Shown piece after piece: positions 11,891 through 14,005 of a stretch of 64,000 nt of DNA. Under the pieces are notes generated by a model. It was not told the DNA's origin. It did no database searches and was given only the letters and a program-made list of their open reading frames with translations. The first letter of the stretch is position 1, and each line of letters starts with the position of its first letter. The position numbers and the translations under genes were made by a program. The stretch comes from Bacillota bacterium (GTDB taxonomy: Bacteria; Bacillota; UBA4882; UBA10575), in assembly GCA_012837715.1 (NCBI GenBank), contig DUQR01000041.1:1-64000 (forward strand), read 5' to 3'.

Positions 11891-14005
11891 TTACTCTTCT
11901 TGATCGTTATTTAAACCCATCTTTTCCGCCAACAGATCCCCGAGATTAGAAGAAAGGGGTTTCTCCTCAAGACCGGGGATGCTCTGCGCTTGCTTTTGCT
12001 CACGCGGCGGTTCCGGTTTTCGTTCCTGCTGTTCCCGAAGGCTTAAACCGATCCTTTTTTGTTCGGGATCAACCTTCACTACTCGCGCCCGGACGGTCTC
12101 GCCGATTGTAACGACCTCTTCTGGTTTTTCGACCCGCTCCCCACTGAGTTGGGAAATATGGATCAAACCATCGACCCCTTCCTCTAAATTGACAAAAGCG
12201 CCGAAGGAAGTAAGACGAACTACTTTTCCTTCTACCATATCGCCCACCTTATATTTTTCCCCCACCTTACTCCAGGGGTGTGGTGACAACTGTTTCAAAC
12301 TGAGGGAGATCCGCTTCGCTTCCCGGTCAACCTTAATAACCAGCACCTGAAGTTCCTGGCCTTCCTTCAGCCGGGCCGACGGATGAGGGATTCGTTCCCA
12401 TGCAATCTCCGAAATATGAAGCAACCCTTCCACCCCATCGCCTAAATCAACAAAAGCACCAAAGGGAGTTAAACGGGTGACCACCCCATCCCGGGTCTGC
12501 CCTTCCTCTAACTCAGCGTAGACTTTAGCTTCAACCGCATCCCGTTCCTCCTGTAAGACCTCTTTCCGGGAGAGAACGGCCCGGTGTCGCTGGGGTTCAA
12601 AATCGATCAGGTAAAATTCGGCTTCAACCCCTTCTAACTTGGTAAGATCAGCCACATATCCCAAGTCCGCCTGGGACGCGGGAAGAAAGGCAATAAGGCC
12701 GTTGATATTCACTTGAAGACCGCCCTTGATCGCACGGATAATTTTCCCCGACACCCGCCGGTGTTGCTCAAAATCGTCTTTTAGTTCTTGCCAAGCCAAT
12801 TCTTCATCGGCCTTCCGCTTTGAGAGCCGGGTCTTCTCATCTTCGGCTTTCAGGACCATGACCTTAATCTTGTCACCCACTTTTGCCACTTCACGGGCAG
12901 AATCCACTTTCGCACTGGTTAACTCGGCTAGAGGAATCGTAAAATCGGATTTTCCACCGACATTGACGGCGATTTCATCATCATTAACCGCCACGACGGT
13001 TCCTTCCACGATTTTACCCTCTTCCAACCGGGGGATCTCTTGATTTAATAACATTTCTTCACTGTCCATTGCCGGCTGGTCATTATCCACCTTATCTACC
13101 TCCTCTGTCAGCTGTCCATTCGTAACTTGATTCTCTTCCATAGTTATACCTCTACCTCCTGTATAATTTTGTTTCAGCCAGTCCACGACCTCGGAGATCT
13201 GACCTTGAGGGGTCGACGCTCCGGCTGTTACTCCAATTATTTTTTTCCCTGCCAACCATTGGGGATTTATCTCTTTTTCTGATTCTATATGATAAGTCGG
13301 GGTAAGGGAAGACCCAATCTCCACAAGTTTACGGGTATTAGCTGAATTTCTTCCCCCGACCACCAATAACAGATCAACCTGACGGGCCAGTTCCCCTGTT
13401 TCTCCTTGCCTTTCCCGCGTCGCATGGCAAATTGTATTATAAATCTTTACTTCCTTCGCCCCGGGAAGCAAGGCCGCAACCACTTTCGCCAGCGACTCTT
13501 GGGGGAGGGTGGTCTGACAAACAATTCCCAGTTTCGGCTTGTATGGGCCGGTCGGCCACTTTTCCGGCACCGCCGGATCGACAATGATCGCCTCTTGGTT
13601 TACCCCATCGACCACTGCCTGCACTTCCGGATGGTTAGGATCACCAACCACCACCACTTGGTAACCATCCTCCCGTAACCCCCGGGCTAATAGCTGTTCC
13701 TGTTTAACAAAGGGGCAAGTTGCATCAATTACCTTTAACCCCTTTTTTTCGGCTGCCGCCAAAACCGTTGGCCCGGCGCCATGGGACCGAATGAGCAGAA
13801 TACCCCCAGGTTTGGTTTCTGCTAAGTCCGTAACGGTTTGGATTCCGCGTTTTTCCAAATCCGTAATCACCCGCGGATTATGAATGAGCGGACCTAATAT
13901 GTAAACCGGCTGCTGGTTTTGGGTTTGACATTCCAACGCGATTTTGAGCGCCCTTTCCACCCCAAAACAAAAACCGGCTTTTTTCCCTATAATGATTTTG
14001 CCCAT
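11891..14005 (-). CDS. ispH-rpsA: Fused 4-hydroxy-3-methylbut-2-enyl diphosphate reductase / ribosomal protein S1
   Basis: Two-domain protein of 704 residues, a fusion known from Clostridia. Residues 1-285 are IspH, the last step of the MEP isoprenoid pathway: cluster cysteines C13 (GFCFGVERA), C97 (DATCPFV) and C193 (TICHATRER), plus H42, H75, H125 and E127. An acidic linker (290-325) leads to four S1 RNA-binding repeats, e.g. VEGTVVAVNDDEIAVNVGG, RVSGKIIRAIKGGLQVNI, RDGVVTRLTPFGAFVDLGDG and VEGKVVRLTSFGAFVNL; the third and fourth have the classical S1 signature. An internal ATG at 13141 (residue 289) follows AGGAGG and AGAGG, so S1 may also be made alone. Start ATG 14005 overlaps plsC by 19 nt. 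Confidence 0.95.
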   Translation of the reverse strand: MGKIIIGKKAGFCFGVERALKIALECQTQNQQPVYILGPLIHNPRVITDLEKRGIQTVTDLAETKPGGILLIRSHGAGPTVLAAAEKKGLKVIDATCPFVKQEQLLARGLREDGYQVVVVGDPNHPEVQAVVDGVNQEAIIVDPAVPEKWPTGPYKPKLGIVCQTTLPQESLAKVVAALLPGAKEVKIYNTICHATRERQGETGELARQVDLLLVVGGRNSANTRKLVEIGSSLTPTYHIESEKEINPQWLAGKKIIGVTAGASTPQGQISEVVDWLKQNYTGGRGITMEENQVTNGQLTEEVDKVDNDQPAMDSEEMLLNQEIPRLEEGKIVEGTVVAVNDDEIAVNVGGKSDFTIPLAELTSAKVDSAREVAKVGDKIKVMVLKAEDEKTRLSKRKADEELAWQELKDDFEQHRRVSGKIIRAIKGGLQVNINGLIAFLPASQADLGYVADLTKLEGVEAEFYLIDFEPQRHRAVLSRKEVLQEERDAVEAKVYAELEEGQTRDGVVTRLTPFGAFVDLGDGVEGLLHISEIAWERIPHPSARLKEGQELQVLVIKVDREAKRISLSLKQLSPHPWSKVGEKYKVGDMVEGKVVRLTSFGAFVNLEEGVDGLIHISQLSGERVEKPEEVVTIGETVRARVVKVDPEQKRIGLSLREQQERKPEPPREQKQAQSIPGLEEKPLSSNLGDLLAEKMGLNNDQEE
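13139..13161 (-). promoter_or_regulatory. Internal ribosome-binding site and ATG for S1 inside ispH-rpsA
   Basis: On the minus strand the sequence AGGAGGTAGAGGTATAACT is followed at once by ATG (13139-13141), in frame with the fusion at residue 289, exactly in the linker between IspH and the first S1 repeat. AGAGG is spaced 7 nt from the ATG and AGGAGG 13 nt. Initiation here would give a 416-residue S1-only protein, close to the size of free-standing S1 in related bacteria. The match of position, frame and domain boundary is observed; use in the cell is inferred. Confidence 0.55.

Follow-up and report, generated by a model that had tools for sequence, protein, structure and literature searches.

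The fused ispH-rpsA gene in the window (the whole stretch of 64 000 nucleotides that was analysed) is best read as a two-product gene, to which we assign a probability of about 0.9: an IspH-S1 protein would be made from a weak ispH start and free ribosomal protein S1 from a start inside the gene. Joining of the S1 gene to that of a metabolic enzyme occurs in many anaerobic bacteria; about 180 fused genes were compared, and in nearly all of them a ribosome landing site with a start codon persists at the junction. Ribosomes starting at the weak ispH site would read across the border and give a minor IspH-S1 fusion; other ribosomes would load independently at the Shine–Dalgarno (SD) sequence of the border, where the original rpsA start is kept in frame, and give free S1 (~46 kDa), presumably the more abundant product. 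As fused genes have no ispH stop codon, termination-reinitiation is impossible and loading would have to be independent. Internal initiation would keep the S1 supply independent of IspH and could answer the stoichiometry problem of a ribosomal protein tied to a metabolic enzyme, as the original prediction proposed. As long as free S1 persists, small frame shifts could fuse and split the genes repeatedly.

The open reading frame (ORF) of the window was assigned to the fusion family with NCBIfam profile NF000907 (764.5 bits; curated cut-off 624), and Pfam placed LYTB at residues 4–277 and four S1 domains after it. Apart from the fusion, the window genome has no IspH match and no full-length S1; all other S1 matches are single S1 domains, and separate ispH or rpsA genes were not found in the assembly, which is 98.7 % complete. 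The sequence around codon 289 is ACAGGAGGTAGAGGTATAACTATGGAAGAG; read on the minus strand, AGGAGGTAGAGG (13160–13149) is followed by TATAACT (13148–13142) and ATG (13141–13139). Unlike the coupled ispH/rpsA pairs of split relatives, the window gene has no stop codon between IspH and S1; what is found is an SD with an in-frame start inside one ORF, conserved at the DNA level, as in genes with an internal in-frame start. The features are collected in Table 1.

Table 1. Features of the fused ispH-rpsA gene and its internal site in the window.
Feature	Position	Strand	Basis
ispH-rpsA fusion ORF, 704 codons, encoding IspH (LytB) and four S1 domains in this order	11891..14005	minus	NF000907, Pfam
ispH start overlapped by upstream plsC-like ORF (19 nt); weak ispH SD (-7.3)	13987..14005	minus	
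AGGAGG, strong SD core, 13 nt ahead of internal ATG (7 nt in relatives)	13155..13160	minus	sequence, relatives, duplex energy -12.4
TAGAGG, 6 nt inserted; absent from the other genus members, fused or split	13149..13154	minus	comparison with L002–L004, L008–L011
In-frame ATG inside the ORF (codon 289), homologue of the codon that starts rpsA in split relatives	13139..13141	minus	sequence, relatives
Further SD-like stretch and its GTG (codon 306), GAGGAGGTAGATAAGGTG	13088..13105	minus	SD score slightly above that of the ATG site
Predicted free S1, 416 aa, 46.4 kDa	11891..13141	minus	ORF; separate rpsA from homologous codon in G001 (L009/L031)

The original prediction had placed an in-frame ATG at residue 289, on the IspH/S1 border, and an S1-sized product of 416 residues behind it, and the sequence agrees. 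It had also described a strong SD seven bases before this ATG: AGGAGG is present but 13 nt away, and the element at 7 nt is the weaker AGAGG. A 6-nt spacer insertion was recognised because the relatives read AGGAGG-TATAACT-ATG with 7-nt spacing; within the genus it occurs only in the window genome, where it shifted AGGAGG from 7 to 13 nt and added the second SD, and it may weaken the internal site of this gene.

From this one sequence a chance origin of the site is possible, because the SD pairing energy at codon 289, although the best of the seven in-frame ATGs, is surpassed at four in-frame GTG/TTG codons (117, 118, 306 and 614). The original view that the site is unlikely to be accidental was therefore too strong for the single gene and holds from the comparative evidence. 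That the genome uses SDs is indicated by AGGAGG-N(4–13)-ATG, found 19 times in the window (5.3 expected); absence of the 16S 3′ end from the window assembly was counted against the two-product reading. GTG 306 was set aside as a real S1 start: its SD-like stretch is common to the genus members, and it was judged incidental because the other genera of the family have lost the start codon.

Sixteen genomes were searched for the family comparison. The fused genus members (L002–L004, L008, L010 and L011) carry AGGAGG, 7 nt and ATGGAA at the border, and in the split relative G001 the same SD and ATG start a separate rpsA, the ispH stop TAA lying inside the spacer. Split relatives ordinarily start rpsA at this same codon, behind the same SD, so the internal ATG is homologous to a genuine rpsA start. 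The border of the fused gene in G009 differs from that of the split genes in G014 and G015 by one G in the spacer, and the fused G012 and the split G011 are a comparable pair; small indels fuse or split the two frames. A tree was built from IspH and S1 with the linker left out. It shows eight changes between the fused and the split state, at least seven of which are forced by well-supported branches, and on this tree the fusion state in the window's family is one that comes and goes. In a split Lachnospiraceae contig (L149), ispH and rpsA overlap, the rpsA SD lies inside ispH, and rpsA has a TTG start in another frame.

In a phylum-wide sample, the fusion was found as one open frame in 147 of 200 genomes. 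The usual site lies in the last IspH helix, at the codons [K/E]-E-V-x-x-x-M, with the DNA reading (A/G)AGGAGGT...ATG. Codon choice was tested because the [K/E]-E-V peptide is SD-like by nature. A first pooled codon test was circular, its genes having been picked by SD spacing, and was replaced by landmark-anchored and hold-out tests, in which the conserved Ile270 of IspH served as the anchor and an ATG seven codons later was the sole requirement. The discovery set comprised 69 clusters below 70 % identity, 68 of which could be anchored. The ATG stood at the expected codon in 58 of these 68, with GG[AG]GG in place in 58/58; codons were xAG in 57/57 (27.9 predicted by the usage of each gene) and GAG in 54/54 (23.1 expected). 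Elsewhere in the discovery genes, both codons of a [KE]EV tripeptide are xAG in 9/84 cases. The same Ile270 rule was applied to a hold-out set of 103 newly fetched fused genes: 89 have the ATG at the exact codon, all 89 with the SD core, and the codons under the SD are xAG in 86/86 (31.5 expected) and 82/82 (27.6 expected). The 14 exceptions are SDs with the ATG one codon earlier (seven), GTG at the same codon (five) and a displaced arrangement (L290 and L306), so that an SD and a start codon stand at the border in 103/103 hold-out genes; absence of such conservation had been named beforehand as what would speak against internal initiation. Since the genomes are related, the P values of these tests are nominal; exceptions are few. 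In the discovery set, L072 lacks the motif at the usual place (AAAGAAGTT) and has GAGGG before a later ATG, and L012 and L013 show weaker or non-ATG arrangements. The check extends to a distant class with otherwise standalone IspH, in which two fusions (L169 and L170) carry AAGGAGGT and an ATG at the border with 8 nt from core to ATG; this fusion, present in two genomes of one family, possibly reflects transfer or taxonomic misplacement. Standalone IspH genes of Bacilli were tried as a control (1/28 carries GG[AG]GG within its final 28 codons) and rejected as poor, because their C-termini are not alike. The anchored counts show phylum-wide conservation of the SD in the DNA itself, more than the protein needs.

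Further marks of a start site accompany the motif. The in-frame ATG with the strongest SD falls in the border zone in 99/103 hold-out genes (33.9 expected), and the mRNA has less structure around the border ATG than the gene shows elsewhere (mean z +1.5, 97 % positive, n=147), a signal partly due to a G+C content lower by about 10 points. Behind the border ATG stand residues of the kind usual at N-termini (SE, EE, TE, EN); the separate S1 of L149 appears to start at TTG with SEVSFEQML, which is near the MSE...FEEML of fused genes. The SD of the internal site outranks that of the ispH start in 134/145 genes, and ispH starts with TTG or GTG in 93/145, counting whichever start codon lies closest to the aligned start. 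A weak ispH start and a strong internal SD fit a low predicted level of IspH-S1 and a high one of free S1. In most fusions the spacing from core to ATG is 11 nt, which is long by Escherichia coli standards; Staphylococcus aureus prefers a spacing 2–3 nt above that of E. coli, with SD pairing extended towards the start (PMC13009471). A spacing of 11 nt is taken as workable in these relatives, with some moderation of initiation possible.

The SD and ATG might instead be an inert relic of the old ispH/rpsA boundary, S1 being present only within the fusion or freed by proteolysis of the linker. In the window's family, where fusion is recent and reversible, there has been too little time for decay, and persistence of the site there would suit a relic; retention of the SD codons across the phylum in all anchored ATG-bearing cases would not be expected of one, nor do the exceptions look like decay, as they swap ATG for GTG or shift SD and start jointly. 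We regard a relic as improbable. Ribosome pausing has been proposed as a role for SD-like sequences at domain borders, and the stretch might slow elongating ribosomes to aid IspH folding, with no start; even so, a pause site needs neither a start codon at a fixed distance, nor a region of low structure, nor homology with true rpsA starts, all of which were found, and this explanation appears still less probable than the relic.

The least probable of these explanations is that the protein alone is constrained, the end of IspH requiring [K/E]-E-V...M and resembling an SD and start by chance. The peptide is indeed conserved and SD-like, and synonymous recoding gene by gene gave a weak signal (median p about 0.14). 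The absolute choice of GAG in both sets, set against the 9/84 for the tripeptide elsewhere, speaks for the DNA, as does the SD of the window's family, which sits on different residues (TGG) further downstream; on the codon counts the protein-only explanation is already contradicted.

Fusion of the two genes was already known; the conserved internal start appears to be unreported, and its components and principle are of known kinds. An internal in-frame start giving two products is known from IF2 alpha/beta. Cas11b is likewise made separately as the C-terminal part of one ORF, cas8b, from an internal SD and start (PMC11899642). In contrast to both, the internal product predicted for ispH-rpsA is a complete ribosomal protein, and its start site was once that of a separate gene, a use that it still has in split relatives. 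Translationally coupled overlapping pairs (PMC6728339) resemble the split loci L038, L039 and L149, with the rpsA SD in the 3′ end of ispH and stop/start overlaps, whereas fused ispH-rpsA genes lack the ispH stop.

The IspH-RPS1 ‘Rosetta stone’ fusion was described from more than 400 sequences, in organisms that have no further ispH or rps1 gene (Rao et al. 2015, PMC4746011), and the fused gene and domain order (NF000907, PRK00087) are those of the window. There the product was treated as one bifunctional protein, the fusion was used to argue that isoprenoid synthesis is linked to the ribosome, and an N-terminally tagged full-length product was purified from E. coli; such a tag would not retain a product that starts inside the gene. 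The main text of PMC4746011 makes no mention of an internal start, the conserved second start being what the present comparison adds to that description. A 46-kDa protein copurified with the Clostridium thermocellum fusion (PMC4746011) fits free S1 in mass, but was identified by the authors as E. coli Rho and is for that reason no evidence for it. A Fusobacterium 2D-gel spot assigned to LytB/RpsA was also set aside, as no mass was found for it. The literature search, with subscription papers mostly outside it, returned no report of internal initiation in ispH-rpsA, of which an earlier description is possible, and no ribosome-profiling or proteomic data on a shorter product.

Genomes with the fusion are annotated with S1 solely inside an 80-kDa metabolic enzyme. 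Given the conserved internal start, free S1 is predicted from sequence to be very probably made and to have been missed by annotation, which changes the reading of the widely annotated ‘bifunctional’ IspH/S1 family. If the internal start is used, what needs explaining is the retention of the read-through product. One tentative and rather doubtful suggestion is that the ribosomal protein is mainly the free S1 and that the minor IspH-S1 is purposely kept to carry a redox-sensitive Fe-S enzyme to a few ribosomes.

Two minor observations concern the relatives. The genome G011 has, beside its own split pair, a second and distant fused ispH-rpsA on contig C54 (L040); this is likely assembly contamination, because it shares an almost identical border with L022 from genome G043. 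The linker from the border ATG to the first S1 domain (L011, L035 and L038) is highly variable in length even within the family and contains expanding repeats that are E/A/T-rich or of the MDSEA type.
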